From Caulobacteraceae bacterium (lineage in GTDB: Bacteria; Pseudomonadota; Alphaproteobacteria; Caulobacterales; Caulobacteraceae): a DNA stretch of 15,129 nt. Under the pieces are notes generated by a model. That model was not told the DNA's origin and did no database searches. It saw nothing but the letters and a program-made list of their open reading frames with translations. Shown here one piece after another: positions 1 to 15,129 of the stretch (position 1 is the stretch's first letter; every line of letters starts with the position of its first letter). The position numbers and the translations under genes were made by a program. Location of the stretch: assembly GCA_013815405.1 (NCBI GenBank), contig JACDGF010000011.1, forward strand, positions 1-15,129, written 5' to 3'.

Positions 1-66
1 GCGCAAGGGGCCGATCCGCTCGGCGACGACCGGCGCCGCGATCATGAAATTCGATTGGGGCGTCAC
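1..66 (-). CDS. Start of an unknown minus-strand protein (partial)
   Basis: Reading leftward from a GTG at 66-64, an open frame runs to the window edge and encodes TPQSNFMIAAPVVAERIGPL after the start residue. An ATG at 45-43 (the internal Met of SNFM) is an alternative start. The frame begins 20 nt after the stop of the 86-517 gene on the same strand, so the two are probably co-transcribed. Only 22 residues are visible and no family can be named. The SNFM-x-x-AP opening looks like a genuine protein N-terminus, but that is an impression. The ribosome-binding site before the GTG is poor. Confidence 0.45.
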   Translation of the reverse strand, partial: MTPQSNFMIAAPVVAERIGPLR

Positions 67-85
67 CCTCGGGGCCGCCCGACGG

Positions 86-517
86 TCAGAATTTCAGGCA
101 AAAATCGATCAGGCGCGCCTTGTCCCAATAGACCTTGCCCAGATAGAGGCCCGGCGCGATCAAGCGGATCTCGTCGCGGATCCAGTGGGCGACGAGCGAG
201 GTCGTCGAATAGTCCAGGACGACGCAGTCCTTGCCGTCGAGCCAGCTCGCCGCCGGGTAGACGCGGGCGATGATGGCGTTCCAGCCGAACGGCAGGATGC
301 GGTTCTTGAGATCCCCGGCCTTGGCGTCGAAGACCTTGCCCTGCCAGGCGAAGTGATTGACGAAGCTGGCGATCGTCGGGCTGAACGACGTGCCGGGCGC
401 GATGATCGCAGTGCCGTCCGCCTCGCCGTCGGGAATCGGCCCCGGCTCGCTGGCGGTGAACAGGGCGTCGAGGTCCGCCTGGGACATCGTGAGCAATTGT
501 TCGACGGTCCTGGTCAT
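86..517 (-). CDS. Conserved hypothetical protein, 143 aa
   Basis: I cannot name the function. The protein has no signal peptide or membrane segment and is probably cytosolic. The N-terminal 30 residues are acidic (LTMSQADLDALF). A compact C-terminal domain (about residues 48-143) contains SFVNHFAWQGKVFD, the hydrophobic AIIARVYPAASWLDGKDCVV and LDYSTTSLVAHWIRDEIR, ending LYLGKVYWDKARLIDFCLKF. This looks like an alternating beta-strand, lipocalin-like fold, though that is inferred from the residue pattern only. The start chosen is the ATG at 517-515: its leader strand reads AAGGGGGTGG (521-530), a strong Shine-Dalgarno. The open frame extends further upstream to 661, but that extension is basic and low-complexity, and it overlaps the divergent promoter region. 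The partial gene at 1-66 follows 20 nt downstream. Confidence 0.75.
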   Translation of the reverse strand: MTRTVEQLLTMSQADLDALFTASEPGPIPDGEADGTAIIAPGTSFSPTIASFVNHFAWQGKVFDAKAGDLKNRILPFGWNAIIARVYPAASWLDGKDCVVLDYSTTSLVAHWIRDEIRLIAPGLYLGKVYWDKARLIDFCLKF

Positions 518-684
518 CGGCCACCCCCTTTTTGCCAAGGGGCGATTTGTCGTCAAACCGCGACGGCCTTGCAACCGATTATTCGCGCGGGGCGCCGACG
601 GAGATCGCGCCTGGCCGCGTGGAAACCTCGAACGATCCATCGTCGGCCGCGGCCGCCGCAACTCTTTCCCGGAGATTCGAAACC

Positions 685-1011
685 ATGAAGTCGCCCCTCA
701 TCGCGTCCGCCGCCATCGCGGCCTGCTTGCTGGCGGCCGGCGGCGCCGTCGCCAAGCCCAACAGCCCCAAGGCCATGTGCGCGGCCGATGTCCAGCGGAT
801 GTGCCCCACCGCCGCCCAGGGGCGCGGCTATCTGAAGCGATGCTTCAAGGGCCGCATGGACCAGGTGTCCCCCGACTGCCGCTCCGCCCTGGAAATGGCC
901 CGGGCCAGGCACGCCCAGAAGAAGGCGGCCATGGCGGCCGGCGGAGGCCAGCAATACACCTCTCCCGACGGCCAATACGCTTCCCCCGACGGCTCCCCGC
1001 CCTCGCGCTGA
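685..1011 (+). CDS. Small secreted Cys-rich protein (GLG1/Cys-rich FGFR-like repeat)
   Basis: This is a 108-aa exported protein of unknown role. Residues 1-22 form a clear signal peptide: MKSP, then a hydrophobic Ala/Leu core, ending GAVA before KPNSP. The mature part carries one Cys-rich unit: C-AADVQRMCP, then a GRGYLKRCFKGRMDQVSPDC stretch. This four-cysteine spacing matches the repeat of the Golgi apparatus protein 1/Cys-rich FGF receptor family (PF00839), which occurs as single units in many proteobacterial periplasmic proteins. The C-terminus is flexible and has a duplicated YxSPDG unit. The ATG at 685 is preferred over the open frame from 532 because it begins the signal peptide and has GGAG about 11 nt upstream. 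It is divergent from the 86-517 gene across a 167-nt spacer in which I saw no convincing promoter boxes. Confidence 0.8.
   Translation: MKSPLIASAAIAACLLAAGGAVAKPNSPKAMCAADVQRMCPTAAQGRGYLKRCFKGRMDQVSPDCRSALEMARARHAQKKAAMAAGGGQQYTSPDGQYASPDGSPPSR
952..993 (+). repeat. Two tandem 21-nt repeats inside the Cys-rich protein gene
   Basis: Positions 952-972 and 973-993 are near-identical 21-nt units, each encoding Q-Y-(T/A)-S-P-D-G. They differ at three positions (ACACCTCT versus ACGCTTCC region), two of them silent. They form the C-terminal tail of the small secreted protein. Copy number may vary between strains. Confidence 0.75.
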
Positions 1012-1023
1012 TCGCGCGGCGAT

Positions 1024-1047
1024 CCCGCGCTCCCATGGGAGCGCGGG
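1024..1047. terminator. Perfect 24-nt palindrome, possible terminator
   Basis: The half-site CCCGCGCTCCCA is followed at once by its exact reverse complement TGGGAGCGCGGG. As RNA this is a 10-bp, very GC-rich stem with a CAUG loop, 13 nt after the stop of the small secreted protein. There is no U-tract on either strand, so intrinsic termination is plausible rather than certain. A protein-binding site is the alternative. Confidence 0.45.
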
Positions 1048-1078
1048 CGTCCCGTCCATGGGCGCTCGCCCCTCCTAT

Positions 1079-1211
1079 TGAACCCTGCCTACAATATGGA
1101 CGAAAATTTGCTCCATGTGGGCGTGCCTGTAATAAGGCGCTCCTTCTGGTCAGTACCTTCGACTGTCATCGGGTTGCGCCTCCGAGGCCACGGCCCGCAT
1201 AGTGTCGTCCG
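1079..1211 (+). promoter_or_regulatory. Probable promoter/leader region of the hsd operon
   Basis: This is the AT-richer part of the 200-nt spacer before hsdR. TACAAT at 1090-1095 matches the -10 consensus in 5 of 6 positions but lacks a good -35 box. A weaker arrangement is TTGCTC (1108-1113) with TAATAA (1130-1135), spacing 16. No Shine-Dalgarno is visible before the hsdR ATG at 1212. The promoter must lie about here because the next gene upstream ends at a strong hairpin, but the exact boxes are uncertain. Confidence 0.25.
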
Positions 1212-2306
1212 ATGGCGACGCCCGAACAGAAGGCCCGCCAGCTCATCGACGCCCAGCTCGGGGCGGCGGGCTGGGTTATCCAGGATCGCGGCGAGATGAA
1301 CCTCGGCGCGGGCCTCGGGGTGGCCGTGCGCGAATACCCGTTGGCCGGCGGACCTTGTGACTACCTGCTGTTCGTGGACCGGAAAGCCTGCGGCGTGGTT
1401 GAGGCCAAACCCGAAGGACGGACGCTGTCGGGCGTCGCGGAACAGGCTGGCGGCTATCAGCAGCAGCTCCCCGGGCACTTGGCCAACTGGGGCGATCCCT
1501 TGCGCTTCGACTATGAGGCGAGCGGCGCCGAAACCCTGTTCAGCGAAAGAGCGGACCCCGAGCAGAGATCGCGTTACCTTTTCACGTTCCATCGGCCCGA
1601 AACGCTGCTGGATTGGCTGAAAGATGGTTCGTCGCTCCGGGCGCGGTTGGCGGAACTGCCGCCCCTCGATGTGACGGGTCTCCGCGAGTGCCAAATCGAA
1701 GCCCTTATCATCCTGGAAACCTCCCTCGCCCGGGCCGATCCCCGCGCCCTGGTCCAGATGACCATGGGCGCGGGCAAGACCTTCACCGCCGCCACCTTGA
1801 GCTATCGCCTGCTCGCCCACGCCGACGCCCGCCGCATCCTTTTCCTGGTCGACCGTAACAACCTCGGCCGCCAGGCGCTCAAGGAGTTCCAAGACTATCG
1901 CCCGCCAGGGACGGGGCGCCTGTTCACCGAGCTCTACAATGTCCAGCGTTTGGGCGCGGCAGGCCTCGATCCGGCGGCGAAGGTCGTGATCTCCACCATC
2001 CAGCGGGTGTTCGCGCAGCTCACCGGCGCCGCGCTCGACGAAGCCGACGAGGAGGCCAGCGGTTATGAGAGCGAAACCGCGGGCGCCGTTCGCGAGGTCG
2101 CCTACAACGGCGCCCTGCCGCCCGAGACCTTCGACATGGTCATCGTCGATGAGTGCCACCGCTCCATCTACGGAACCTGGCGCCAGGTGCTCGACTACTT
2201 CGACGCCTTCACCATCGGGCTCACCGCGACGCCCTCGGCCCACACCATGGGCTATTTTCAGAAGAACCTCGTGGCCCAATACCCCTATGAGCGATCGGTC
2301 GTCGAC
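1212..2306 (+). pseudogene. hsdR: Type I restriction endonuclease subunit HsdR, truncated
   Basis: HsdR is the ATP-dependent DNA-translocating nuclease subunit of type I restriction systems. The N-terminal PD-(D/E)xK nuclease domain is present (D50, then E64-A-K66 in GVVEAKPEG). The first RecA-like motor domain is also present: Walker A MGAGKT (185-190), motif II VDECHRS (312-318) and motif III LTATP (337-341). Similarity stops after YPYERSVVD (D365, codon 2304-2306). The frame stays open with unrelated residues to a stop at 2385-2387. Motifs IV-VI, the second motor domain and the C-terminal region are missing; the family is usually more than 800 aa. The sequence after the break is hsdS in another frame. 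Without half of its motor the product should not translocate or cleave. The start at 1212 gives a normal family N-terminus (ATPEQKARQLID). Confidence 0.88.
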
Positions 2307-3043
2307 GCAGCTCCTGCGCCGCATCCTGGACGACCGACGGAGCAGTTGGCGGAGAAAGGCCCACGGCGCCTGCAAAATCTACCGTGAAGTCCCGGTTCCC
2401 AATACTGAAGGGATGCCTGAATTACCAAACGGCTGGGTGTGGGCGAGCAGTGAAATGTTGGCGGAAGGCGGTTGGGGAGGGATCGTCATCGGCCCCTTTG
2501 GAAGCAATCTGAAAGTTTCAAATTATACGGCGTCTGGCGTCCCACTGGTGTTTGTCCGGCATATTCGCTCGCATGACTTCGCGGGGATTCGTCCTCAGTT
2601 CATCTCTGCCGTCAAGGCTCGTGAGTTAGCAGCCCATGAAGCCGAGCCCGGCGACATATTGATCACCAAAATGGGGGATCCACCTGGGGACGCGGCCATT
2701 TATCCTTCGGGGTTTCCGAACGCTGTCATCACCGCCGACTGCATTCGATGGCGACCAACGCCCTTGATGAACACCTCCTTCCTTGAAATGTGGGTCAACT
2801 CCTTCTGGGCGTCGCTGGATCACGAGCAAGACCCAAGGCGTGGCGCAGCAGAAAATCAGTTTGGAATTATTTCGCGCCCTTCCGGTACCCGTCGCCAGCC
2901 GCGAAGAGCAACAGCGTATCGTCGATGAGGTAGGTCGACTGCAGGGTCAGACCGGTCGTGGCGAGATGGAATTCGATGTTCCCACCCTCCGCCAATCCAT
3001 CCTCGCCGCCGCGTTCCGGGGAGAATTGGATTTGGGCTCGTGA
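2307..3043 (+). pseudogene. hsdS: Type I specificity subunit HsdS, 5'-truncated and frameshifted
   Basis: HsdS reads the target DNA with two recognition domains (TRDs) separated by helical linkers. What remains starts in the central linker (QLLRRILDDRRSSW, from 2308), then the hallmark entry into TRD2, MPELPNGWVWAS. TRD2 follows (IGPFGSNLKVSNY, FVRHIRS, GDILITKMGDPPGDAAIYP), to FLEMWVNSFW. Around 2807-2820 the reading frame must shift by +1 (frame of 2065 to frame of 2783). It then continues as WITSKTQGVAQQKISLELFR and the C-terminal linker TLRQSILAAAFRGELDLGS. TRD1 and the original start are absent. The TRD2 part looks less GC-rich than its flanks, as is usual for exchanged TRDs. The last linker (GRLQGQTGRGEMEFDVP) looks shortened. 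The stop overlaps the next gene's GTG. Confidence 0.87.
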
Positions 3044-3537
3044 CCGAAGCCGCCGACGTCGATCGCCTGTTGGCTCATACCAAGACGATGGCCGGAACCG
3101 CCGCCTGGGCCTTGGACGGCCGCGAAACAGTCTCACGGCTGGCCGTTTCCTTGGCTGTCGACGGCGTGCTCAGCGGTTTAATTTTCCATGCGCGCGCGAC
3201 GCGCCACACCGACCCTCAGCGAGGCGCATGCGCTCTCATCCTCGATCGACATCCCGTCCAACGCCTGTCGATCCTCCCTGACCACGAGCACTACAATCCC
3301 TTCCTGAAGACCGCCCCGCCGAACCTGCGAGGGTTGCGGCTACCGGCGGGGCGCAGCCGCCTTCACCCTTGGCGGCTCAATCGCGCCTGGCCTCGCCTAT
3401 CGTCCGACAATCTGGGCGTGGCCGAGTCGCTCGATCCCGAACCGTCGTCGTTCGCCGCGGCCATCGCGATTTTCCTGGGACTATGCGCTATTGAGGGCGA
3501 TCTCCCGCCGCCGCCCTGGGAGCCGAGACTGTTGTGA
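3040..3537 (+). CDS. Unknown 165-aa protein inside the hsd operon
   Basis: I do not recognise this family. The protein has no signal peptide or membrane helix. Its N-terminal third (TEAADVDRLLAHTKTMAG) looks helical. The middle has a conserved-looking segment (VDGVLSGLIFHARATRH, then LILDRHPVQRLSILPDHEHY with H and N/P residues). The C-terminus is WRLNRAW, DPEPSSFAAAIAIFLGL, then PPPPWEPRLL. The GTG start overlaps the hsdS stop as GTGA (3040-3043), and its own stop overlaps the next gene's GTG the same way (3534-3537). GGGGAG lies about 16 nt upstream. The tight coupling and the partner DUF1828-like gene suggest the two products work together. Possible roles are an added defence module, an antitoxin/toxin pair or an accessory R-M factor. 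These are hypotheses from context, not from motifs. Confidence 0.7.
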   Translation: MTEAADVDRLLAHTKTMAGTAAWALDGRETVSRLAVSLAVDGVLSGLIFHARATRHTDPQRGACALILDRHPVQRLSILPDHEHYNPFLKTAPPNLRGLRLPAGRSRLHPWRLNRAWPRLSSDNLGVAESLDPEPSSFAAAIAIFLGLCAIEGDLPPPPWEPRLL

Positions 3538-4286
3538 CCCTGCTCAAACCCATCGCCTTCGACGTCTCTCGCGCGGTAGGGGCTGCCGTCGCCGCGCCCG
3601 AGGGTGTGCGCATCGAGACGACGACGCTTCTGCCGGGCGGCGGCGTGGCGGCGGTGTCGGTCCGCCCCGCCGGCGAGTCCTTTGTGGTCAGCGACGACGG
3701 CGTGGCCAGAAGCGCCCTCCTTACCTTGATGGTCCACGACCTGGCGGCGGCGGATTTCCGGCGGGGCCGCGAGATCGCGGAGGCGAGTGGCCTCACCTTC
3801 GACGACGATATCTTTTCCCTTGGCGATGTTTCCCTGGCCCAACTGCCCGCCGCCGTCGCCTTCGTGGCAGACGCGAGCCGGGCCTGGGTTCAAGCGGTCT
3901 TGGACAGGCGGGCGAGGCGCGCCGAGCGCGATCTGGCCCATCGAACCGCGGAGCGCCTCAAGGAAATGTTTCCCGCGGCCCATGTCGAGCCGGAAGGCGA
4001 ACTGATGGGCGCCAGCACAAAGACCCACAGGTTCGATTTCGTGATGACCTTGCCTGGAAACCGGTACGCCGCGTTTCAGACGGTCTCGCCCGTGCCGACG
4101 TCGATCGCGGCCACCCATCTGAAGTTCTATGACCTATCCCAGGTGCATCCGGACTGGCCGAGAGAAGCGATCGTGGAGAGCTACTCCCTTTGGCGCGCCG
4201 ACGATTTGGCCGTCATAGCTCAGGTCTCCAGCCATGTGCGGGACTTCGCGAAACCCTGGCTGGACCTGGCCTCCCTTCACGCATGA
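3534..4286 (+). CDS. DUF1828/DUF1829-like protein inside the hsd operon
   Basis: This is a 250-aa cytosolic protein of unknown function. Residues about 20-110 resemble DUF1828: a short beta-rich stretch with GGGVAAVSVRPAGESFVVSDDG, where SDDG is the typical core, followed by a helical GLTFDDDIFSLG segment. Residues about 130-250 resemble DUF1829: HRFDFVMTLPGNRYAAFQTVSP, then SIAATHLKFYDLSQV and SLWRADDLAVIAQVSS. The RFDF...FQTV arrangement is reminiscent of a nuclease-like or nucleotide-binding alpha/beta core, but no catalytic set can be assigned. The GTG start overlaps the upstream stop (GTGA) with GGGAG about 11 nt before it. Its stop overlaps the hsdM ATG (ATGA, 4283-4286). The family assignment comes from memory of its motifs and is moderately sure. 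Confidence 0.72.
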   Translation: MTLLKPIAFDVSRAVGAAVAAPEGVRIETTTLLPGGGVAAVSVRPAGESFVVSDDGVARSALLTLMVHDLAAADFRRGREIAEASGLTFDDDIFSLGDVSLAQLPAAVAFVADASRAWVQAVLDRRARRAERDLAHRTAERLKEMFPAAHVEPEGELMGASTKTHRFDFVMTLPGNRYAAFQTVSPVPTSIAATHLKFYDLSQVHPDWPREAIVESYSLWRADDLAVIAQVSSHVRDFAKPWLDLASLHA

Positions 4287-5737
4287 ACGAACAGACCCTC
4301 GTCTCCAAGGTCTGGAACTACGCCCATGTCCTGCGCGACGAGGGGGTGTCGTTTGGCGACTATCTGGGTCAGATCAGCTTTCTGCTCTTCCTCAAGATGG
4401 ACGAAGAGCGGACCACCTACCTCAACGAAGGCTCGCTCATCCCCGCCGAATTCCGTTGGGAGGCCCTGCGCGGCAAATCGGGCGATGCGCTGGACGTTCA
4501 CTACAAGGATGCGCTGGCGACGCTCGCCAGGCGGGACGACCTGGTGGGCACCCTGTTCCTCAAGGCCGAGAGCAAGATCAACGATCCGGCCAAGCTGCAG
4601 CGCTTGGTGGACCTGATCGACGGCGAGACCTGGATGGGCGTCAACGTCGACATCAAGGGGGCGATCTATGAGGGACTCTTGGAGCGCAACGCCGGCGAGG
4701 TGAAGTCGGGGGCCGGCCAGTATTTCACGCCTCGCGCCCTCATCCGGGCGATGGTCGAGGTGGTCGATCCCGAGCCCACCGAAACCGTCTGCGATCCGGC
4801 CTGCGGCACCGGCGGCTTTCTGCTCGCCGCCTATGAGCACATGAAGGTCAAGCCCGGCGCCGCCGATCGCGCCGCCTCGATACGCTTGCGGCATCACAAC
4901 TTCCGAGGCTACGACATCGTCGCCGAGGTGGTGCGGATGTGCGCCATGAACCTCTATCTGCACGGCGTCGGCGGCGCCAGATCGCCGGTGGAACAGCGCG
5001 ACTCCCTGCGCTCCGACACCGGTGAGCGTTTCGACGTCGTCCTCGCCAATCCGCCCTTCGGCAAGCGCCAGTCGTTCCGGATCGTCAACAAGGAAGGCGA
5101 TATCGAGTCCGAGCGCGAGGACTACGTGCGCGACGACTTCACCGTCACCACGTCCAACAAGCAGCTCAACTTCCTGCAGCACATCATGACCATCATGACG
5201 CCGACCGGCACCGCGGCCGTGGTGGCGCCAGACAATGTGCTCTTCGAGGGCGGCGCGGGCGAGACCCTGCGGCGGCGTCTTCTGAAGGACTTCAATTTCC
5301 ACACCCTTCTGCGCCTGCCCACGGGGATTTTCTACAAGCAGGGCGTGAAGGCCAATGTCCTGTTCTTCGAAAGGGTCGCGGCCGGCGAGCGCGTCGCCAC
5401 CGAGGCCCTCTGGGTCTACGATCTTCGCACCAACCAGAACTTCACCCTTCGCGAACGCCCCCTGGCGCGCGCCGACCTCGACGACTTCGTGGCGTCTTTC
5501 CACAGCGGTCGCCGCCATCAACGCGAGGAGAGCGAACGGTTTCGGCGCTTCCCCTACGAAGACCTGGCCAAGCGCGACAAGCTCAACCTCGACATCTTCT
5601 GGCTAAAGGACGTTGGCCACGTCGACCCCGACAGCCTTCCGCCCCCTGACGAAGTCGCCGCCGAGATCGTCGAGAACCTGGAATTGGCGTTGGAGAAGTT
5701 CCGCGGCGTGGCGGCGGCGCTGGCGAGGGTGGAATGA
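4283..5737 (+). CDS. hsdM: Type I DNA adenine methyltransferase subunit HsdM
   Basis: HsdM transfers a methyl group from S-adenosylmethionine to N6 of adenine, as M2S with HsdS. The 484-aa product is full length. The HsdM N-terminal helical domain runs from about residue 3 to 135 (VSKVWNYAHVLRDEGVSFGD, FLLFLKMDEE). QYFTPRALIRAMV (146-158) precedes SAM-binding motif I DPACGTGGF (171-179). Catalytic motif IV is NPPFGK (256-261). DNVLF (317-321) and LLRLPTGIFYKQGVKANVLFF fragments of the family core follow. The C-terminus is helical. The ATG at 4283 is chosen because it starts the canonical N-terminus and overlaps the upstream stop as ATGA; the open frame before it is not family-like. No reading-frame damage is seen. 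With hsdS broken, it can methylate only if an HsdS is supplied from elsewhere in the genome. Confidence 0.95.
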   Translation: MNEQTLVSKVWNYAHVLRDEGVSFGDYLGQISFLLFLKMDEERTTYLNEGSLIPAEFRWEALRGKSGDALDVHYKDALATLARRDDLVGTLFLKAESKINDPAKLQRLVDLIDGETWMGVNVDIKGAIYEGLLERNAGEVKSGAGQYFTPRALIRAMVEVVDPEPTETVCDPACGTGGFLLAAYEHMKVKPGAADRAASIRLRHHNFRGYDIVAEVVRMCAMNLYLHGVGGARSPVEQRDSLRSDTGERFDVVLANPPFGKRQSFRIVNKEGDIESEREDYVRDDFTVTTSNKQLNFLQHIMTIMTPTGTAAVVAPDNVLFEGGAGETLRRRLLKDFNFHTLLRLPTGIFYKQGVKANVLFFERVAAGERVATEALWVYDLRTNQNFTLRERPLARADLDDFVASFHSGRRHQREESERFRRFPYEDLAKRDKLNLDIFWLKDVGHVDPDSLPPPDEVAAEIVENLELALEKFRGVAAALARVE

Positions 5738-5759
5738 GTAAACCGTGCCAGCAGCACCG

Positions 5760-6485
5760 TCAGAAGGCGAACGATTCAGGGCCTCCCGTCCCTGTTGACC
5801 GCTTCTTCTCCATTTTGACCTGCGAAACTTCCGCCCACTTCTCGTAGATGTTGCGAACGCGGCCATTAAGTTCTTCGTAGGTCATTAGCGAAACGCCCTC
5901 GTTGAAGTCGAGAACGATTGAGCGGTCGTCTCCGGCGGGCGGGAAGTGTACAATAGCCAGCCGGGCATCACTGAGATCTGGGTGCCGCGCCCGAATCCAC
6001 GCGTCTTGCATCGAGAGTGCAACCCGTCGAGCCTCCAGGGCCGCCAAGCCGTGATCACGACGGTGATCGAAGAACGGAATGAACGGTCCCTCCCCGTCAT
6101 CAACCACGACATCCGCCCAGAACCTCACCGTCTCATTCAAACCGATAGGCATCCGACCCATTTCGACCTTCACAGCCTTCCAACCGTGTAGCCGCGCTGT
6201 GTCGAAGAGAACCTTTCCTACGCCAACATTTGACTCGCGCTGGACGTCGCCATGCGTACAGGCGCGTTCCATCTGTCGCTTTACCGAAGGCCATGTCACA
6301 GGCGCCATGTCATCAAAGAGCGGTGTGACCGCGTTGAGCAGATCTGCGGTCGAAGATCGGACGGGTTCATAGGACCACGATCCTCCGCCAGCCTCGTACG
6401 CCATCAGCGCGCGTTCAAGCATTTTTTCGCTGTTCAGCGCGGAGAACCGCGCCAAGTCGATCTCAGACAAGCGGCGAATCTTCAT
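5760..6485 (-). CDS. Putative toxin partner of the Panacea antitoxin, unknown family
   Basis: This is a 241-aa soluble protein encoded directly downstream of, and overlapping, a Panacea-domain antitoxin gene. In Panacea pairs the neighbour is normally the toxin. The best known case, Caulobacter SocAB, has SocA as a ClpXP adaptor that delivers the DnaN-binding toxin SocB for degradation. Visible features are a helical N-terminus (IDLARFSAL, ERALMAYEAGG), then a central NVGVGKVLFDTARLHGWKAV. The likely conserved core follows at about 118-182: RFWADVVV, GPFIPFFDHRR, a helix to DAWIRARHPD, and ARLAIVHFP. EGVSLMTYEEL and a basic C-terminal helix end the protein. No nuclease, Fic, RES or ADP-ribosyltransferase motif stands out. 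I see no clear beta-clamp hexapeptide (QxLxLF type); TPLF at 54-57 is at best vague. The ATG at 6485 has GGAGAG (6490-6495) 4 nt before it. A SocB relative is possible. Confidence 0.72.
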   Translation of the reverse strand: MKIRRLSEIDLARFSALNSEKMLERALMAYEAGGGSWSYEPVRSSTADLLNAVTPLFDDMAPVTWPSVKRQMERACTHGDVQRESNVGVGKVLFDTARLHGWKAVKVEMGRMPIGLNETVRFWADVVVDDGEGPFIPFFDHRRDHGLAALEARRVALSMQDAWIRARHPDLSDARLAIVHFPPAGDDRSIVLDFNEGVSLMTYEELNGRVRNIYEKWAEVSQVKMEKKRSTGTGGPESFAF

Positions 6486-7017
6486 TCGGCTCTCCAACGC
6501 GACTGTCAGGACCAACGGATACCCTTTGGAACCTGAATCGTTCTCGGGTGACATTATCGGAGATTCGAAGCCCAAGCACCACGGATGTTTTTGCTTTGTT
6601 CACCACGAACGCCCACGGTCCATCTGGCGCATGAGTGATTTCGATCAGGCGTCCGGCCGAGAGGTGTCCGAGGGAGCCCAGAACGCCAACGATAACACGC
6701 TGCACCTCAATATCATCGGGAACGGGCATCGGCCGAGTTGCTCCGGTCATCACATCGCGCGCCGTTGCACGAGTCTCTATGGGGCGACCCTCTTCGCATT
6801 TGAAGGCGCGGTAAACTGCGGGATGCACGGGTCCATAAGTCCAAGCCTCAAAGCATCCGTCGAGCAACGGATTCCCTGTACGAATTAAATATTGACCGTG
6901 TGCAAAATAGAGCAGCTTCTGTAGCGCAAGATTGCTCAGCTTGAGACCAGCGACCGCCGCCTGATCAAGCATGAGGTTGGCGACAGCGCGGGGGTCGAAT
7001 GGCGGACCCTTAGGCAT
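6463..7017 (-). CDS. Panacea-domain (SocA-like, DUF4065) antitoxin
   Basis: The 184-aa product carries the Panacea domain (PF13274), known as a versatile antitoxin domain that neutralises many unrelated toxins. Hallmarks in order are FDPRAVANLML (7-17), LQKLLYFAHGQYL (32-44), FEAWTYGPVHPAVYRAF (56-72) and LSAGRLIEITHAPDGPW (119-135). The 45-residue tail (VVNKAKTSVVLGLRISDN onward) probably contacts the specific partner. The ATG at 7017 is preferred because CGGGGA lies about 10 nt before it; the frame remains open to 7179, but the extension is basic and unlike the family. The gene overlaps the downstream candidate toxin by 23 nt, antitoxin first, which is the usual order for translational coupling. 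Base composition looks lower in GC than the flanking genes, in keeping with lateral acquisition. Confidence 0.88.
   Translation of the reverse strand: MPKGPPFDPRAVANLMLDQAAVAGLKLSNLALQKLLYFAHGQYLIRTGNPLLDGCFEAWTYGPVHPAVYRAFKCEEGRPIETRATARDVMTGATRPMPVPDDIEVQRVIVGVLGSLGHLSAGRLIEITHAPDGPWAFVVNKAKTSVVLGLRISDNVTRERFRFQRVSVGPDSRVGEPNEDSPLV
6490..6495 (-). promoter_or_regulatory. Ribosome-binding site deciding the toxin start
   Basis: On the minus strand GGAGAG lies 4 nt before the ATG at 6485-6483. It sits inside the 3' end of the antitoxin gene. It marks this ATG, and not the open frame from 6575, as the toxin start, and it allows re-initiation after the antitoxin stop at 6465-6463. Confidence 0.7.
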
Positions 7018-7195
7018 GCTTACGCTATCCCCGAAACGAATCATGTCCGAGCATCGTCTAGACCCGTTGGGGCGGCAGTGTAAGGGCGAAAGAGAACAAA
7101 AAGCGAACTTTTTCCGCATCGCTTGGCGGCGGCCTCGGAAAACTTTGGTGGTATGGGAGGGCGCCCATTGAGGCGACAACCCCGAATAGGAAAGA

Positions 7196-7204
7196 TGTTA
7201 TAAT
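7196..7204 (+). promoter_or_regulatory. Extended -10 promoter (TGTTATAAT)
   Basis: TGTTATAAT is a perfect extended -10 element (TGn then TATAAT at 7199-7204), which is striking in such GC-rich DNA. The region 17 nt upstream (about 7175-7181, GACAACC) matches the -35 box poorly, as is acceptable for extended -10 promoters. Transcription would start near 7211 and leave a leader of about 110 nt before the ATG at 7323. Confidence 0.55.
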
Positions 7205-7268
7205 TACAGCGGTGCGGCCTCGACCACGGGGACCCCGCATCGGACCGTCAGCAATCCAAGCCCCAAGC

Positions 7269-7310
7269 TTGCAGAAGCCCTGCAATTGACCGCAAGATCG
7301 CTGCGGTTTT
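7269..7310 (+). promoter_or_regulatory. Two tandem hairpins in the leader of the propeller gene
   Basis: The first hairpin is TTGCAG (7269-7274), a 5-nt loop, then CTGCAA (7280-7285). The second is ACCGCA (7289-7294), a 7-nt loop, then TGCGGT (7302-7307) running into TTTT (7307-7310), which is terminator-like. Both precede the GGGG ribosome-binding site by only a few bases. They could affect leader termination or ribosome access. The stems are only 6 bp, so chance cannot be excluded. Confidence 0.3.
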
Positions 7311-7322
7311 GCGGGGTCTTCC

Positions 7323-10300
7323 ATGCGTCGTCGACACCTCTATTTTGCGACCCTTGTCGTGTCAGCCGGGGTGGCGATTGTCGCCGCGGCGCATCCCGCC
7401 CTCGCCGCCCGGGCTCCGAACCCCAACCCGCCTCCCGCCCTCTATGGCGACCTGAGCTGGCGCCTTGTCGGCCCGTTCCGAGCGGGTTGGGGCGAGATGG
7501 TGGAGGGCGTGGCGGCCCGGCCGGACCGGTTCTATTTCGGCGCGGCGGGGGGCGGGGTGTGGCGCACGGACAACGCCGGGCGCACCTGGGCGTCGCTGTT
7601 CGACAAGGGCCCGACGGCGCCGATCGGCGCCCTGGCCGTGGCCCCCTCCGCGCCCGACACGATCTACATCGGCGCCGGCCAGCCGGAGCCACGCTATGAC
7701 GTGGCCGGCGGGACGGGGGTGTTCAAGACCACCGACGGAGGAAAGGGTTGGCGCTCGCTGGGCCTGGAGAGGACCCGCCACATCGGCCGCATCTGGGTCG
7801 ATCCAAACGATCCAAATACGGTGCTGGTGGCAGCGGTGGGGCAGTTCTTCGGCCCCAGCGCCGAACGCGGCGTCTATCGCTCCGCCGATGGGGGCGCGAC
7901 CTGGTCCCAGACCCTGAAGATCGACGCCGACACCGGCGCCGTCGATCTGGCGGCCGATCCCAAGGACTCGAAGGTGATCTTCGCCGCCGCCTGGCAGGCG
8001 CGGCAATACCCCTGGCAAAGCTATTTCACCCCCGTCGCCGGGGCGGGCAGCGGGATCTACAAATCGGCCGACGGCGGCCTCACCTGGGCGCGGCTCACGG
8101 GCAAGGGCTGGCCCGCCGGCCCCCTGGGCCGCATCAGCGTGGCCGCCACGCGCACGGCCGACGGCGCGCTTCGGGTCTATGCGGTGGTGGCGTCGGAGGA
8201 GGCGGGCGGGCTCTACCGCTCCGACGACGGCGGCGCGTCCTGGGCGCGGGTCAACGACGACCCGGCCTTCAGCGGCTACTACGCGAGCCACGTCACCGTC
8301 GCCCCGGGCGATCCGGACATCGTCTGGCTGGTCGGCCAATCGTTGCGGCGGTGCACGGGCGGCGGCAAGGCGTGCGAGATCGTCAAGGGCGCCCCGGGAG
8401 GCGACGACTACCATCAGATCTGGATCAACCCGGCCCGGCCCGACCACATGGCCACGGCCACCGACCAGGGCGTGGTGGTCACCGTCGACGGCGGCAAGAC
8501 CTGGTCGAGCTGGTACAACCAGCCCACCGGCCAGTTCTATCATTTGGCCGCGGACGATCGCGTTCCGTACACCATCTATTCGGGCCAGCAGGATTCCGGC
8601 ACGGTGGGCATCGCCAGCCGCACCGACTTCGGCGCGATCGGCTATCGCGACTGGCGCCCGGTGGGCGGCGACGAGCGCGACTACGACATCCCAGACCCGG
8701 ATGATCCGACCATCGTCTACGGCTCGGGGCTGGGCGGCCGGATCAGCCGTTTCGACGGGCGCACCGGGCAGTCGGCCAACATCACCCCCTTTCCGGTCCC
8801 TAACTATGGCGAGCGCCAGACCACCACCGAACACCATTTCGTCTGGGTGACGCCCCTGGCCGTTTCTCGCGCCGGGCCGGTGACGCTCTATCTGGGCGGC
8901 GAGGTGGTGTTCGCCTCCGCCGACCGAGGCGACCACTGGAGCATCATCAGCCCCGACCTCACCGGCAAGGAGGCGGGGGCCAAACGATGCGACGGGGAGG
9001 TCGCGGTGGCCGACGCCAAGGCCTGCGGCTATGGCGGTATCTGGAGCCTCGCGCCCTCGCCGCGGCACGCCGGCGAGCTGTGGGTGGGGACGGACAGCGG
9101 CCTGATCCAGCTCACCCGAGACGGCGGGGCGCACTGGACGAACGTCACCCCGCGCGCGGTTCCGGCCTGGGCCAAGGTATCGGCCATCGACGTCTCGCCG
9201 CTGGCCGACGGCGCCGCTTACGCCGCGATCGACAACCAGCGCCAGGCCGACCTCCAACCGAAGGTGCTGGCGACGGGTGACTATGGCGCCACCTGGCGGG
9301 ACGCCACCGGCGATCTGCCCAAGGATCATTTCGTCAGCGTGGTGCGCGCCGATCCGGTCCGGGCGGGCCTGCTCTTCGCGGGCACGGAGGTCGGCGTCTT
9401 CGTCTCCTTCGACGATGGCGCCCACTGGGCGCCCTTGCAAGCGAACCTGCCCACCGCCTGGGTGAGGGACCTGCTCGTCCACGGCGACGACCTGATCGTG
9501 GCCACCCAGGGACGGGCCCTCTGGGCGATGAGCGGCCTCTCCCTCCTGCGCCAGGCCGACGGCGTTATCGCGCGGCGGCCGTTCCACCTTTTCAACCCGG
9601 CGCCGGCCCTGCGCGTCCGGGCCAACAACAACCGCGACACGCCCCTGCCGCCGGAGGAGCCGGTGGGAGAGAATCCGCCGGCCGGCGCGATCTTCGACTA
9701 TTGGCTGGCCGCGCCGGCCAGGGGACCCCTCACCCTGGAGATCCGCGACGCCGCCGGCGCCCTGGTGCGGCGCCTGAGCAGCGAAGCGGAGGCCCGCCCC
9801 GACGCCGAGGCCTATTTCGCCAAGCGCTGGATCAACCCGCCGGCCCCGCTCTCACGCGCCGCCGGGGCCCATCGGGCGGTTTGGGACCTGCATTACGCCC
9901 GCCCCGCCGCCATCCAATACAGCTATTCCATCGCCACCGTGGCGGGCGCCGAGACGCCGATCACGCCGGAAGGACCCCTCGCCCCGCCGGGCGTCTATTC
10001 GGTGACCCTGGCCGCGGACGGAAAGACGGGGCGGGTCGAGCTGACGCTTCTCCAGGATCCGCGCACCCACGCGGCCGCGGCCGATTTCCAGGCGACCCTG
10101 GCCCTGTCGCGCCAGATCGGCGCGAGCCTCGCCACAGCCCGGCGCGGGTACGCCGAGACGGCCGCCGCCTTGGACCAGCTGACGGCGGCGCGGCCCGCCG
10201 GCGATCTGGCCGCCCAGGTGAAGAACTTGGCCGACCGGCTGAAGCCGCCCAAGACGGGGCCCAGCTTCCTCGCCGCCAGCGCCGTCCTGGCCGGGATCGA

Positions 10301-10529
10301 GACCGACCTCGAAGCGGCCGACCGCGCACCCACCGAGCCCCAACGTTCGACCGCCGCCCGAGTGGAGGCCCAGATCGAGACCCTGTGGGCCGCCTGGGCC
10401 GCCCTACGCGACGGAGACCTCGCCAAGGTCAACGCCGCCCTCGCCTCCGCCGGCCAAAAACCCGTGGTCATCCCTCCGCCCGACCACCTGGTCGTGAAAC
10501 CCCCGGCGGGTGGGGAAGAGCTGCCGTGA
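7323..10529 (+). CDS. Exported Asp-box beta-propeller protein (VPS10/sortilin, GH74-like)
   Basis: The 1068-aa protein starts with a signal peptide (MRRRHLYF, hydrophobic core, cut near ALAA at about residue 29). Residues about 40-740 are filled with Asp-box (BNR) motifs of the S/T-x-D-x-G-x-x-W type. Examples are TDNAGRTW (82-89), TTDGGKGW (136-143), SADGGATW (187-194), SADGGLTW (248-255), SDDGGASW (300-307) and TVDGGKTW (387-394), with further copies SADRGDHW, TRDGGAHW, TGDYGATW and SFDDGAHW. Such repeats cap the blades of one or two beta-propellers, as in sortilins, GH74 xyloglucanases and sialidases. After about 760 comes a beta-sandwich-like part (PLTLEIRDAAGALVRRL, APPGVYSVTL), then a helical C-terminus (about 905-1040). 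The family is often labelled glycosyl hydrolase, but no catalytic residues can be assigned. Substrate binding outside the cytoplasm is the safer reading. GGGG lies about 7 nt before the ATG. Confidence 0.88.
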   Translation: MRRRHLYFATLVVSAGVAIVAAAHPALAARAPNPNPPPALYGDLSWRLVGPFRAGWGEMVEGVAARPDRFYFGAAGGGVWRTDNAGRTWASLFDKGPTAPIGALAVAPSAPDTIYIGAGQPEPRYDVAGGTGVFKTTDGGKGWRSLGLERTRHIGRIWVDPNDPNTVLVAAVGQFFGPSAERGVYRSADGGATWSQTLKIDADTGAVDLAADPKDSKVIFAAAWQARQYPWQSYFTPVAGAGSGIYKSADGGLTWARLTGKGWPAGPLGRISVAATRTADGALRVYAVVASEEAGGLYRSDDGGASWARVNDDPAFSGYYASHVTVAPGDPDIVWLVGQSLRRCTGGGKACEIVKGAPGGDDYHQIWINPARPDHMATATDQGVVVTVDGGKTWSSWYNQPTGQFYHLAADDRVPYTIYSGQQDSGTVGIASRTDFGAIGYRDWRPVGGDERDYDIPDPDDPTIVYGSGLGGRISRFDGRTGQSANITPFPVPNYGERQTTTEHHFVWVTPLAVSRAGPVTLYLGGEVVFASADRGDHWSIISPDLTGKEAGAKRCDGEVAVADAKACGYGGIWSLAPSPRHAGELWVGTDSGLIQLTRDGGAHWTNVTPRAVPAWAKVSAIDVSPLADGAAYAAIDNQRQADLQPKVLATGDYGATWRDATGDLPKDHFVSVVRADPVRAGLLFAGTEVGVFVSFDDGAHWAPLQANLPTAWVRDLLVHGDDLIVATQGRALWAMSGLSLLRQADGVIARRPFHLFNPAPALRVRANNNRDTPLPPEEPVGENPPAGAIFDYWLAAPARGPLTLEIRDAAGALVRRLSSEAEARPDAEAYFAKRWINPPAPLSRAAGAHRAVWDLHYARPAAIQYSYSIATVAGAETPITPEGPLAPPGVYSVTLAADGKTGRVELTLLQDPRTHAAAADFQATLALSRQIGASLATARRGYAETAAALDQLTAARPAGDLAAQVKNLADRLKPPKTGPSFLAASAVLAGIETDLEAADRAPTEPQRSTAARVEAQIETLWAAWAALRDGDLAKVNAALASAGQKPVVIPPPDHLVVKPPAGGEELP

Positions 10530-10542
10530 AGGGATTGCAAAT

Positions 10543-10617
10543 GGTCCCCCTCCCCCAAAAGGGGAGGAGAAAACAAGCAATAACGCTCTCTTCTCCCTCT
10601 GGGGAGAAGGGGACTCT
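10543..10617. repeat. Nested inverted-repeat element between convergent genes
   Basis: The outer arms are GTCCCC (10544-10549) and GGGGAC (10609-10614). Inside are two hairpins: CCTCCCC (10549-10555)/GGGGAGG (10561-10567) with loop CAAAA, and TTCTCCC (10591-10597)/GGGAGAA (10602-10608) with loop TCTG. An AT-rich centre (AAAACAAGCAATAACG) separates them. The build resembles dispersed intergenic repeats of GC-rich alphaproteobacteria. It lies between two genes that end towards each other, so it probably also serves as a two-way terminator. Confidence 0.6.
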
Positions 10618-10629
10618 TGCCACATGCCC

Positions 10630-11868
10630 CTACCGCCCAGCCACGCAGCTTAAGTCGCGCCCGTGCAGGCGGCAGGTGGCCGCCACGGCGTCGGTCAGGT
10701 CGTGGAATGTCCCGACCCAGTCCGCCCCCTTCCGGTCGAACAGGAAGTAACCGAAGCGGCCCATGGTGAAGGCCCGCGCCGCCAAGCCGTCGATCTTCAC
10801 CTGGCCGGTCGCCGGCGGAGGGGTGTCGTTGAGCGCCATCAGATCGCCGCCGGTGCCGACCACCAACTGGGCCGGGCGGTTCTCGCCGAAGCCGAGGGCG
10901 GTGAAATTGTGCACATGGCCCGAAAGGATCAGCGCGATTCCGCCCAGGTCGCGTCCCCGGACCGCCGCGCGCTCCGTGGCGTTGACGATGCCGTCGCTCA
11001 GGATGTCGCCGAAACGGATCGCGTCCCAGACCGGGCGATGGGTGACGATCCAGGCCGGCGCTCGCCGGTCGCGACTCTTCAGCGGTTCGAGGCCGCCGGC
11101 GAAGGCGCCGACCGATCCGGCCGTCGCGAAAATGTCGTTGGTGTCGGCGCTGTCGACGACGAAGAGCGTCACGCCCCCCACATCGACCGCGAAGGTGTCG
11201 CTCCGCGCCGGGCAGGCCCTGGGTTTCGCCGCCGCGTCGAGCAGGCGAAACCAGCCCGCGCCGCCGCGTTTGCAGTCCTCGTGGTTTCCCCGCGCGAACA
11301 CCCAGGGCGCGGCGGCCAGAAGGGGCTGGGCGGGATCGAAGAGCTCGGCCTTCCAGGTCGCCCAGCGATCGCCGAACGGGCTGCCCGCGCAGGCCGCCTC
11401 GCGGGCCGGGCAGGGCGTCTCGCGGTAGTAGTAGTCCCCCACATGGATGACCAGATCGGGCCGGCGCGCCGCCGCCAGGGAGGCGACCTTGGCGAAGGGC
11501 CAGCCGGTGGGATCGTTACAGTGCTGGGCCGCGGCGCCCTTCAGCCGGCAGCCGGAGTCGCCCAGGATCACGAGACGGTCGGGGCGGGGCTTGGGGATCG
11601 GCAAGGCCGTCTTGCCCACCGCCGCCCGCCGGGCGCCCTTGGGAAGGGCCGCGCCGCAGACGCGATTGGGAAAGGCGCCGCTCGGAGCCGACCGCTCCCT
11701 CATGGCCAAGGCGCGGCCATCGACGCGAAGGGGCGGGCAGGCCGCCTCGGTAGTGACCGCCCGCGCCTCGGCGCCGCGCCCAGTCATCTCCACCCAGGCC
11801 GTCGGTCCGGCGTGCGCGGCGCCGGCGACGAAGCCGAGCCAACAGCCGATCAGGATCGCGGACTTCAT
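10630..11868 (-). CDS. Secreted metallophosphoesterase (purple acid phosphatase-like)
   Basis: The 412-aa enzyme is predicted to hydrolyse phosphate esters with a two-metal centre outside the cytoplasm. The signal peptide is residues 1-20 (MKSAILIGCWLGF...AHA). The calcineurin-like motifs appear in order: GDSG (103-106, D104), GDYYY (144-148, the GDxxY form seen in purple acid phosphatases, with D145 and Y148), GNHED (194-198), THRPVW (276-281, H277) and SGHVHNF (316-322, H318 and H320). All metal ligands expected of the family are present, so it should be active. Eight or so cysteines, including C44, C71, C107, C117, C153, C160 and C199, suggest disulfides. The ATG at 11868 starts the signal peptide; the ribosome-binding site (GAGAAA) is weak. 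The natural substrate cannot be told. It is divergent from the DUF2141 gene. Confidence 0.9.
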   Translation of the reverse strand: MKSAILIGCWLGFVAGAAHAGPTAWVEMTGRGAEARAVTTEAACPPLRVDGRALAMRERSAPSGAFPNRVCGAALPKGARRAAVGKTALPIPKPRPDRLVILGDSGCRLKGAAAQHCNDPTGWPFAKVASLAAARRPDLVIHVGDYYYRETPCPAREAACAGSPFGDRWATWKAELFDPAQPLLAAAPWVFARGNHEDCKRGGAGWFRLLDAAAKPRACPARSDTFAVDVGGVTLFVVDSADTNDIFATAGSVGAFAGGLEPLKSRDRRAPAWIVTHRPVWDAIRFGDILSDGIVNATERAAVRGRDLGGIALILSGHVHNFTALGFGENRPAQLVVGTGGDLMALNDTPPPATGQVKIDGLAARAFTMGRFGYFLFDRKGADWVGTFHDLTDAVAATCRLHGRDLSCVAGR

Positions 11869-11981
11869 GCTGGATTTCTCAACGGCGAATTGGAAGATTG
11901 GGCCGTCGCCGGGCGAACATCACCCCCTCCCACGCCTGATCGTCAACCCGGGGGCTTTCGGATCGCCGACTCGCCTCCTAT

Positions 11982-12010
11982 TTGACCGGTGCGCGCCAGC
12001 GGGGTATGGG
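11982..12010 (+). promoter_or_regulatory. Candidate promoter of the DUF2141 gene
   Basis: TTGACC (11982-11987) and TATGGG (12005-12010) are separated by exactly 17 nt. The -35 box is very good; the -10 box is modest (TA-T and GG at the end). A start near 12017 would leave a leader of about 67 nt before the GTG at 12084. The rest of the 215-nt spacer (11869-12083) must hold the leftward promoter of the phosphoesterase, which I could not locate. Confidence 0.35.
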
Positions 12011-12083
12011 CGCGACGTGATCGGGGCGACGCTTGGGGGCGGCGCGACCGGTCGTATCCCCTCGCCGGAGGCGTATCGGACCC

Positions 12084-12527
12084 GTGAGACACCGCTCGAC
12101 AATGCTCGCCGCCGCGATCCTGCTGGGCTCCGCCGCCCAGCCGGCGCGCGCCGCGCTGATCGAGGTGGCGGTGACCGGGGTCAGCGACGCGAGGGGCCAC
12201 ATCCGGGTCAACATCTGCACCCAGGACACCTTCCTCACCGAGACCTGCCCCTACCAGGGCGAGGCCCAGGCGATGGTGGGCGCCACGGTGGTCAAGATCG
12301 CCGGGGTGCCGCCGGGACAGTACGCGGCCCAGGTCTTCCACGACGAGACCGACCAGGGGGTGGTCCATCAGAATCTGCTGGGCATCCCAAGGGAAGGGAT
12401 CGGGTTTTCCAACGACGCGCCCCTTCATCTGCGCGGCCCGCGCTTCAGCGACGCCGCTTTTTCGGTGCAACAGGGGGTAGAGCGCATAACCCTGAAACTG
12501 CGGCACCTCCTGGGCGTCAGGCGTTAG
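12084..12527 (+). CDS. Secreted DUF2141 family protein
   Basis: The protein has 147 aa, typical of the DUF2141 family, which is periplasmic and of unknown function. The signal peptide is RHRSTMLAAAILLGSAAQ ending ARA at about residue 23. The mature part shows the family core: VPPGQYAAQVFHDE (75-88), the QNLLGIPREGIGFSND segment (96-111), then GPRFSDAAFSV. Two cysteines (C45 and C55) may pair. GTG at 12084 is chosen as start because GGAGG (12067-12071) lies 12 nt before it and it supplies the basic n-region (RHR) of the signal peptide; the ATG at 12102 is the alternative and would leave a short, uncharged signal. The 3' end overlaps the convergent permease gene by 11 nt. Confidence 0.85.
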   Translation: MRHRSTMLAAAILLGSAAQPARAALIEVAVTGVSDARGHIRVNICTQDTFLTETCPYQGEAQAMVGATVVKIAGVPPGQYAAQVFHDETDQGVVHQNLLGIPREGIGFSNDAPLHLRGPRFSDAAFSVQQGVERITLKLRHLLGVRR

Positions 12528-13917
12528 GCGCCTCTTTGACCGCCGCCGCGCCGCGCGCGGCCAGAGCGTAGAGGATAGCGCCGCCGCCGATCAGCACCGC
12601 CGAAGAAACCACCAGTTTCGCCACCGCCGCCAGCTTATCGGCGGCGTCCGGGCTGGGGAAGAGGGTGCAGGCGATCGCGCTCAAAGTCACCGCCAGGCCG
12701 ATTGCGCCGATCAGCCGCGCCGTGCCGGCCCCGCCGGGCGGGGCCCAGGCGCCTGGCCCCGGTTCCCGCCCCTGAACCTTCAGATAGGTCACGAAAAGAA
12801 AAGCGAAGGGCAGGGTGTAGGAAAGCACGCTCATCGAAATCAGGAAGTCATAGGCGGCCTTGATGCTCGCCCCGGCTTGGCTCAGCAGCACCAGCGCCAT
12901 GACCGCCAAGGCCTGGACGCCAATGGCGACGACCGGCGCGCCGGTCCTGGGGCTCCGCCGGGCGAAGGCCGCCGGAAAATAGTGATCGACGCCGATCACG
13001 AAGGGCAGGCGGGCCGCCACGCCGAACCAGGCGCTGTAGCTGCCCAGCAGCGACAGGGCGAGCAGGAGGAGCGCCGCGGGCGCCGCCGCCCCCAGCCCCA
13101 GGCGCCCGAGGCTCAGGCGCAGGGCGTCGGGCAGGCCCGACAGCCGCGACGCCTCTTCGGGCCTCAGGATCGCCAGCATCGCCAGGGTGCCCAGCATATA
13201 GGCCCCCGCCAGCACCACGCCGACCACCGCCAGGACGCGCAGGATGCGGCGCGTGCCGCCCTTGACGTCCCCCTTGAGGAACGCCAGGGCCTCGGGCCCG
13301 CCGAACGCGAAGACCATGGTCGCCCACAGGGCCGCGCCGTTGGCGTCCAAGGGCGGGGCCCAGGAGGCCCTGGCGAAATCGGTGGCCGGCCCGGCCCGGA
13401 TCGCCAGGGCCGCGCCGGCGGCCAGGAGGATCGCCAGCAGGCCCAAGGACGCCGCCGCCCCGAAGTTCGCCAGCCATTTGCCGGCGTCGAGGCCGGCCAG
13501 CTGCAGGGCCCCGACGGCGGCGGCCAATGCCATCGCCGCGGCGGCGAAGATCAGGGGGTCCTGGACCAGAGGCGCCGCCGCCGGCCCCAGCGCGCCGGCC
13601 AATACGTTGATGATGAAATACAGCGTCGCCGAAAAGAACGGCAGATTGCAGGTCCAATAGAGCCAGCCGCAGAGGAAGCCGGCGAACGGGCCCAGACTCT
13701 CGCGGGCCCAGGCATAGAGCCCTCCCTCGCCGGCGAACCGGCTGGTCAGCTCCGCGGTGGCGATCACCAGCGGGGCCATGAAGCCGAGCATGGCCGCGGC
13801 CCATAGAGGCACGGACGCCGGGCCGGCCGCCGCGGCGACCGCGATCCAGCGGATCGACAGGGTCATGGCGACGGCGTAGAGCCCCAGATCCCACGCCCTC
13901 AGAGGCCGCGCGCTCAC
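12517..13917 (-). CDS. APC-superfamily amino acid/polyamine-type permease
   Basis: The 466-aa inner-membrane protein has about twelve hydrophobic segments, as is usual for APC (amino acid-polyamine-organocation) transporters. TM1 (about 10-30) follows the short cytosolic LRAWDLGLYAVAM. TM2 is followed by ELTSRFAGEGGLYAWARESL, the signature of this superfamily. Later landmarks are FAFGGPEALAFLKGDVKGGTRR between TM6 and TM7, and LGSYSAWFGVAARLPF near TM8. The substrate is not readable from the sequence. The GTG start at 13917-13915 overlaps the stop of the GH84 gene (GTGA), so the two are translationally coupled. That context suggests import of the sugar-amine or glycoconjugate product linked to the hydrolase, though APC proteins mostly carry amino acids. 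Confidence 0.88.
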   Translation of the reverse strand: MSARPLRAWDLGLYAVAMTLSIRWIAVAAAAGPASVPLWAAAMLGFMAPLVIATAELTSRFAGEGGLYAWARESLGPFAGFLCGWLYWTCNLPFFSATLYFIINVLAGALGPAAAPLVQDPLIFAAAAMALAAAVGALQLAGLDAGKWLANFGAAASLGLLAILLAAGAALAIRAGPATDFARASWAPPLDANGAALWATMVFAFGGPEALAFLKGDVKGGTRRILRVLAVVGVVLAGAYMLGTLAMLAILRPEEASRLSGLPDALRLSLGRLGLGAAAPAALLLLALSLLGSYSAWFGVAARLPFVIGVDHYFPAAFARRSPRTGAPVVAIGVQALAVMALVLLSQAGASIKAAYDFLISMSVLSYTLPFAFLFVTYLKVQGREPGPGAWAPPGGAGTARLIGAIGLAVTLSAIACTLFPSPDAADKLAAVAKLVVSSAVLIGGGAILYALAARGAAAVKEAPNA

Positions 13918-14990: not shown

Positions 14991-15129
14991 CCCCGCCAGG
15001 TTTCGAGCGCCGGTCCCAGCGCCTCCTTCAGCGGGGCGAGCCAGGGCTCGAAGTGGCGCCATTGGTCCAGGCCGTCGCGAAAGATCGGCGTGCGGACCTG
15101 CTCCGAGCTGGCGGTCCTCACCGCCCGAT
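14987..15129 (-). CDS. C-terminal end of a sulfotransferase-like protein (partial)
   Basis: The window cuts this gene; only the last 46 residues are visible, ending at TGA 14989-14987. They read RAVRTASSEQVRTPIFRDGL, then DQWRHFEPWLAPLKEALGPA and LETWRG. The pattern QVRxPI...WRxxEPxLxPL matches the C-terminus of sulfotransferases, commonly TPR-containing sulfotransferase-family proteins in alphaproteobacteria. Its stop overlaps the GH84 start (TTGA), so it is the first visible gene of a three-gene minus-strand operon. Whether TPR repeats are present cannot be seen. Confidence 0.6.
   Translation of the reverse strand, partial: RAVRTASSEQVRTPIFRDGLDQWRHFEPWLAPLKEALGPALETWRG

Follow-up and report, generated by a model that had tools for sequence, protein, structure and literature searches.

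Paired genes of the DUF6978-DUF1828 type are carried by prophages, satellite phages, and plasmids, and PADLOC lists them among its candidate defense systems as PDC-M24, where PDC is expanded as phage defense candidate in an excerpt of PMC11514479. A different association with prokaryotic immunity is represented by PrrC, an anticodon nuclease that excerpts from three accounts describe as embedded in EcoprrI, a type IC restriction-modification (R-M) system (PMC3874165, PMC12707154, PMC2610378). In Caulobacter, SocB is described, again in an excerpt, as a toxin degraded by ClpXP (PMC5422525). Here, we analyze a 15,129-nucleotide stretch from a Caulobacteraceae bacterium (assembly GCA_013815405.1, contig JACDGF010000011.1, positions 1 to 15,129), the whole of which we call the window, in which two genes, P1 and P2, occupy the seam between hsdS and hsdM of a type I R-M operon. 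To judge from profile comparisons, this module is very probably a diverged Alphaproteobacterial branch of the DUF6978-DUF1828/PDC-M24 pair.

The forward strand of the window carries, in order, an hsdR remnant, an hsdS remnant, P1, P2, and hsdM, followed on the reverse strand by SocB and SocA. P1, the gene A of the pair (3040..3537, forward strand, GTG start, 165 amino acids), is a remote relative of DUF6978/PDC-M24A as delineated by its open reading frame, homologs, and profiles; P2, the gene B (3534..4286, forward strand, GTG start, 250 amino acids), is a remote relative of DUF1828/PDC-M24B, recognized by the same kinds of evidence together with fold matches. Both frames are free of internal stops. 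Three overlaps on this strand, read directly from the sequence, stitch them into the operon: GTGA at 3040..3043, shared by the hsdS stop (TGA at 3041-3043) and the P1 start; GTGA at 3534..3537, shared by the P1 stop and the P2 start; and ATGA at 4283..4286, shared by the P2 stop and the hsdM start. Since the P2 stop sits inside this last ATGA, the hsdM start is placed at ATG 4283 (MNEQTLVSK), the same start as in the G234 ortholog. An earlier annotation made from the sequence alone (the first-pass annotation) had described two intact frames of these lengths joined by these overlaps, and both the frames and the exact overlaps are confirmed.

Four of the 299 family genomes (G019, G222, G008, and G234) carry a close relative of hsdM (79-82% identical), in each case within an hsdR-hsdS-hsdM operon. 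In each of these operons, one or two residues follow AAFRG(E/D)L at the end of the hsdS product. The hsdS stop codon overlaps the start of hsdM, as ATGA in three operons and GTGA in the fourth, and neither P1 nor P2 has a match in any of the four. The hsdS remnant of the window has a like ending (AAFRGELDLGS) that leads into P1, and P2 leads into the same hsdM start. Because the orthologs join hsdS directly to hsdM, and the window retains both the like hsdS end and the same hsdM start, P1-P2 is, on this comparison, an insertion at the exact joint between the two genes. We found no convincing flanking repeats around the pair that would mark how it arrived, nor was any Rfam match or tRNA found.

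P1 has 17 homologs, which are 50-92% identical to it and 160-165 amino acids long save one of 184; 39 columns of their 18-row alignment are invariant, among them the C-terminal 11 residues, LPPPPWEPRLL. P2 has 14 homologs besides itself. Close homologs, at 92% identity for P1 and 86% for P2, lie elsewhere, on contigs that are both 8603 bases long. In all eight pairwise comparisons (four for each gene), codon divergence is highest at the third position and lowest at the second; against the G174 copy, for instance, the three positions diverge by 0.35/0.25/0.57 in P1 and 0.35/0.25/0.60 in P2. By this pattern, P1 and P2 are both real, constrained genes. The codon constraint on the 165-residue frame across its relatives, which the first-pass annotation had treated as crucial to the pair being a functional unit, is present in each of the four P1 comparisons.

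The family link comes from profile-profile comparison. The P1 set (19 rows) aligns with DUF6978 at a score of 56.6 (probability 95.5, E 1.6e-8), where the best of 100 column shuffles reached 21.1 and the reversed alignment 13.8; the P2 set (19 rows) aligns with DUF1828 at 74.6 (probability 96.8, E 3.1e-10), where the same controls gave 19.0 and 15.4. Three unrelated profile pairings scored 7.0, 13.2, and 22.4. Five distant Caulobacteraceae rows carry the link, scoring 169.6 with the P1 alignment and 37.5 with DUF6978, and four of the five distant relatives of P2 match PDC-M24B directly (best E 1.1e-12). At the other end of the bridge, the A proteins of two canonical pairs match PDC-M24A (1.1e-57 and 2e-56) and their B proteins match PDC-M24B (1.2e-102 and 1.2e-103), and one canonical B protein retrieves plasmid and phage proteins annotated as DUF1828. 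Several results weigh against a closer identification. P1 matches no family at E up to 1 and falls below the cut-off of PF22398 (DUF6978); P2 matches PDC-M24B and phrog_1960 at only E 0.0075 each and has no direct DUF1828 match in Pfam; the 18-row alignment of P1 by itself scores 19.7 with DUF6978, within the shuffle range of the larger set, and the alignment of P2 by itself scores 27.2 with DUF1828, so that the bridge rests on intermediate sequences. Because the link runs through intermediates and the pair's own alignments are weak, we regard P1-P2, on the strength of these profiles, as a diverged relative of the DUF6978-DUF1828 pair rather than a member of it. The first-pass annotation was correct in calling the 165-residue gene unrecognized; Pfam and NCBIfam name neither gene, and the annotation's DUF1828-like label for P2 stands as remote homology by profiles but not as a direct match, no Pfam cut-off being met. 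The small protein has 1529 homologs at E 0.001 or better, and sequence searches found no solved structure of any relative. Canonical DUF6978 (PF22398) matches numbered 3/150 in the order, 3/398 in the phylum, and 1/186 in the class, of which two, two, and none, respectively, exceeded the cut-off.

Homologs of the two genes recur together. In 37 of 43 locus records, B is immediately preceded by A (in L081 at E 5e-3 only, and in degraded form in L077), the six records without this arrangement being L080, L110 (at a contig edge), L111, L112, L113, and L114. In viral records, which were fetched with B alone, A lies at most 400 bases upstream in 35 of 42, or in 31 of 38 without exact duplicates. 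Many of the 43 records also fed the profiles; the viral ones did not, except for overlaps at L122 (on the L090 contig) and L132 (with the A tail of L085), both L090 and L085 being in the profile, and because near-copies remain the 85 records represent fewer elements. The 43-record scan leaves out G839 (L115), L078 (G491), and L079 (G385), in the last two of which no B gene was recognized in the open reading frame lists near sub-cut-off PF22398 matches; it also leaves out L002, L003, and L007, which duplicate the locations of L028, L029, and L030, so that the 16 records first tested amount to 13 places. P1 likewise lies directly upstream of P2 on the same strand. Because A adjoins B in this manner across both sets of records, P1-P2 is, by its gene context, a recurring two-gene unit, and the earlier proposal that the pair forms a functional unit is upheld as far as co-occurrence is concerned.

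Counting the window's own genome, P1-like matches occur in 9/299 and P2-like matches in 10/299 genomes of the family, and all nine with an A match also have an adjoining B gene. Matches to the pair occur in 2/16 genomes of the genus, and a broader P2 profile detects 11/190 genomes of the class. In G069 (L034), the A frame (2046-2525) is whole, the match with a TAA merely extending beyond its stop. Scanning genome contigs with the P2 alignment yielded six loci from 50 stretches; a scan using the P1 alignment gave 91 pattern matches, of which not one was confirmed. There was no match in viral contigs searched with the P1 alignment, the P2 alignment, or one canonical B protein, in plasmids searched with P2, or in E. 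coli DNA searched with the pRSB223 pair; the PDC-M24B model finds matches in the E. coli control genome. A far-diverged pair type is seen in L080, L112, L113, and L114, where B is recognized by profile and the upstream frame, of 115-174 amino acids, has a His-rich stretch (WHCH, LHCH, or LHAH-like) and, in three of the four records, ends in LL. Elsewhere, the pair lies behind clpB or gyrB or near phage integrases; in 6 of 8 annotated plasmid or phage records, one of the first three genes downstream of B encodes an integrase. It stands behind clpB on the same strand in L004, L005, L006, and L030 (Brevundimonas), with a gap of 47-56 bases in three and 132 in L004, which suggests that this site is old or preferred; ClpB was identified by Pfam in L005 and by sequence likeness in the other three, and these sites, sharing one location, are not independent.

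Two small, closely spaced genes next to unrelated genes, with B adjoining A in every family genome that has A, could also serve purely for addiction, as a classic type II toxin-antitoxin pair that has no role involving phages, but no known toxin or antitoxin family is recognized in them, and P2, which shows no DNA-binding family, is bigger than would be expected of an antitoxin; we consider this rather unlikely.

Among 27 diverse A proteins, Lys15 is retained in 26, Asn86 and His109 in 25 each, His84 in 24, and Arg75 in 23. The P1 model has a mean pLDDT of 90.2, falling to 49 in the last five residues. Fold matching suggests a likeness of the N domain of P2 to class I type III secretion system chaperones, at middling Z, and of its C domain to PD-(D/E)XK nucleases, with the active site eroded: of the catalytic D...(D/E)xK set, D168 is largely retained, and the second acid and the lysine are not conserved. 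It is unlikely that P2 is an active DNA nuclease for which P1 serves as the specificity or inhibitor subunit. The explanation we favor, and hold as a whole with somewhat better than even confidence, is that P1-P2 is an independent module that entered the operon precisely at the hsdS/hsdM seam, its frames overlapping those of the operon because it was captured there, and that the two proteins would act as a complex in phage defense or in a toxin-antitoxin-like fashion. For the defense or toxin-antitoxin type of role taken separately, the balance is even; a toxin-antitoxin or abortive-infection role is plausible. Since the conserved polar residues concentrate in A, it is the better effector candidate: P1 would act through the line-up of Lys15, Arg75, His84-x-Asn86, and His109, and P2, with its chaperone-like and eroded nuclease-like domains, would be the partner that holds it or senses on its behalf. 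The LPPPPWEPRLL tail of P1 may be a docking element that binds P2, possibly through the secretion-chaperone-like N domain of the latter; this is a guess prompted by the conservation of the tail and its loose predicted end. This division into effector and partner is doubtful, the more so because only the last five tail residues are predicted to be flexible and because the tail is variable in relatives beyond the 18 aligned rows.

This explanation also faces counterevidence. The first His of the canonical HxH, at position 107, is Arg in 18/18 rows of the P1 alignment; the tail, identical in those 18 rows, is altered in L028, L029, and Brevundimonas; and an L-[LFIVPM] ending is present in 24/27 A rows yet also in 9/31 B proteins, while many viral A proteins lack it. 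The ten neighboring or nearby proteins checked, without systematic scanning of the flanks, form no defense island and are mostly products of housekeeping genes; they comprise ClpB, GyrB, an impB/mucB/samB-family protein (ImuB-like, downstream of the pair), a LuxR-type regulator, a DUF2336 protein, an epimerase, a P450, and three proteins without a family. In the literature searched, no report turned up that tests the function of a family member; three papers mention DUF1828 or DUF6978, and none names PDC-M24.

The operon receiving the pair is itself broken. The hsdR remnant (1212..2387, forward strand) is an N-terminal part including the ResIII/helicase region (ResIII E 2.2e-32), whose homology ends at ~2287-2321; full-length orthologous hsdR (~915 amino acids) aligns with the window at 1212-2321 only. 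The hsdS remnant (2305..3043, forward strand; ending in ...LRQSILAAAFRGELDLGS, the C-terminal motif common to the orthologs) represents the second half of the gene alone, matches beginning at 2308, and is split over two frames, one running up to ~2830 and the other over ~2783-3043, with PADLOC Specificity_I matching both pieces. In contrast, hsdM (4283..5737, forward strand; N6_Mtase E 2e-62) is intact; some hsdM match at 1e-80 is present in 17/299 family genomes. From the coordinates, we infer that the hsdR-hsdS fusion (2287-2321) reflects one deletion of ~2.4 kb when compared with the operon of G019. Near 2800-2830, hsdS also changes frame; a sequencing or assembly error might account for this, as it might for the fusion. 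The first-pass annotation was right that hsdR and hsdS have decayed beside an open hsdM, but its argument that the survival of P1 and P2 in such company signals selection of their own must be rejected. Over the 358 residues compared, the hsdR remnant keeps 79-82% identity to the four intact orthologs, with a mean codon-position divergence of ~0.15/0.11/0.42 against 0.15/0.12/0.40 for hsdM; because it is as conserved as hsdM, the break is by these measures recent, and therefore open P1, P2, and hsdM frames say little about separate selection. The broken R-M system, in a source genome whose draft assembly is fragmented into 513 contigs, might still suggest a chance insertion without present function, a relic in a dying operon, but this is quite unlikely given that both frames are intact and conserved and have their close homologs on the 8603-base contigs elsewhere.

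Type I genes were sought near the pair with a panel of 16 Hsd proteins representing the type I families met here, so that other R-M kinds may be missed. They are within reach in 3/43 locus records (the window, L071, and L072) and 0/42 viral records, 3/85 overall, and no regular linkage of the pair to type I R-M was seen with this panel; the window's hsd genes had no match in the 16 relative records first tested. In all three cases the pair lies just 3' of hsdS. L071 and L072 contain canonical pairs in hsdM-hsdS-A-B-...-hsdR operons whose hsdM is ~25% identical to that of the window. The three cases together look like the outcome of no fewer than two separate captures, and the adjacency may reflect clustering of defense genes rather than coupling. 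In L071 (8460-14958) and L072 (1347-10272), the canonical pair and an Abi_C gene sit between hsdS and hsdR in crowded accessory slots, that of L072 also holding DUF6119 and a 278-residue gene without a Pfam family. The earlier suggestion that the pair might be an R-M accessory fails as a general rule, and a constant accessory role is rejected, by the four orthologous operons without the pair and by the 3/85 count; on whether the pair recurs between hsdS and hsdM or alone, the survey finds it mostly without R-M and, where type I genes adjoin, just 3' of hsdS. For the same reasons, we judge it very unlikely that the pair is an R-M guardian, silenced by or sensing the type I complex and killing or arresting the cell once restriction has been blocked, in the manner of PrrC with EcoprrI: the embedding of the pair with overlapping frames immediately 3' of hsdS in the window, the same position in the unrelated, Abi_C-bearing L071 and L072 operons, and the PrrC precedent for a toxin embedded in a type I operon (excerpts of PMC3874165, PMC12707154, PMC2610378) are set against type I genes reachable in so few records, orthologs of the window's own operon that lack the pair, an R-M system broken while the pair is intact, and the invariable linkage to type Ic systems that an excerpt of PMC2610378 gives for PrrC. 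It is very improbable that the DUF6978-DUF1828 superfamily is a new two-protein immunity module, repeatedly captured 3' of hsdS and controlled by type I assembly or methylation state, a guardian unlike PrrC or PARIS left armed after the R-M system broke.

The analysis sets an unannotated Alphaproteobacterial pair alongside a large family that is in part phage-borne and for which we found no published function, and it offers concrete residues in A for testing. Coupling to R-M also becomes a testable question, the pair having apparently been captured next to hsdS two or more times.

Directly beside hsdM, on the reverse strand, lies a SocAB type VI toxin-antitoxin locus (5760-7179; SocB at 5760-6575, SocA within 6463-7179), above its NCBIfam cut-offs at 215.5 versus 210 and 232.4 versus 190 bits. 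Its GC content of 0.56-0.58 is below that of most neighboring genes measured. R-M, P1-P2, and SocAB are thus stacked side by side in the window, and the remainder (7323-15062) consists of ordinary chromosomal genes: a sortilin/BNR-repeat protein, a calcineurin-like phosphoesterase, an amino acid permease, and a beta-N-acetylglucosaminidase.

Set against described systems, P1-P2 resembles SocAB in that the latter is a two-gene toxin-antitoxin locus, known from Caulobacter; however, SocAB lies on the other strand, and its own NCBIfam models match SocAB and not P1 or P2. With PrrC in EcoprrI it shares the situation of an extra gene within a type I hsd operon. However, PrrC is an ABC-ATPase/nuclease protein described, in the excerpt of PMC2610378, as always tied to type Ic systems, whereas P1-P2 and its relatives mostly occur without R-M, and neither Pfam nor NCBIfam detects an ABC ATPase or anticodon nuclease domain in P1 or P2. 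The likeness to PDC-M24 extends to gene order, protein sizes (~150-165 and 250 amino acids), strand, close or overlapping frames, the R..H.N.....H motif line, and colinear profile homology over nearly all of P1 and ~11-217 of P2. In contrast to PDC-M24, P1 and P2 remain below the curated cut-offs, P1 has Arg for the first His of HxH and a proline-rich tail, their relatives are seen in chromosomal rather than prophage settings, and the window's pair sits at an hsdS/hsdM seam.
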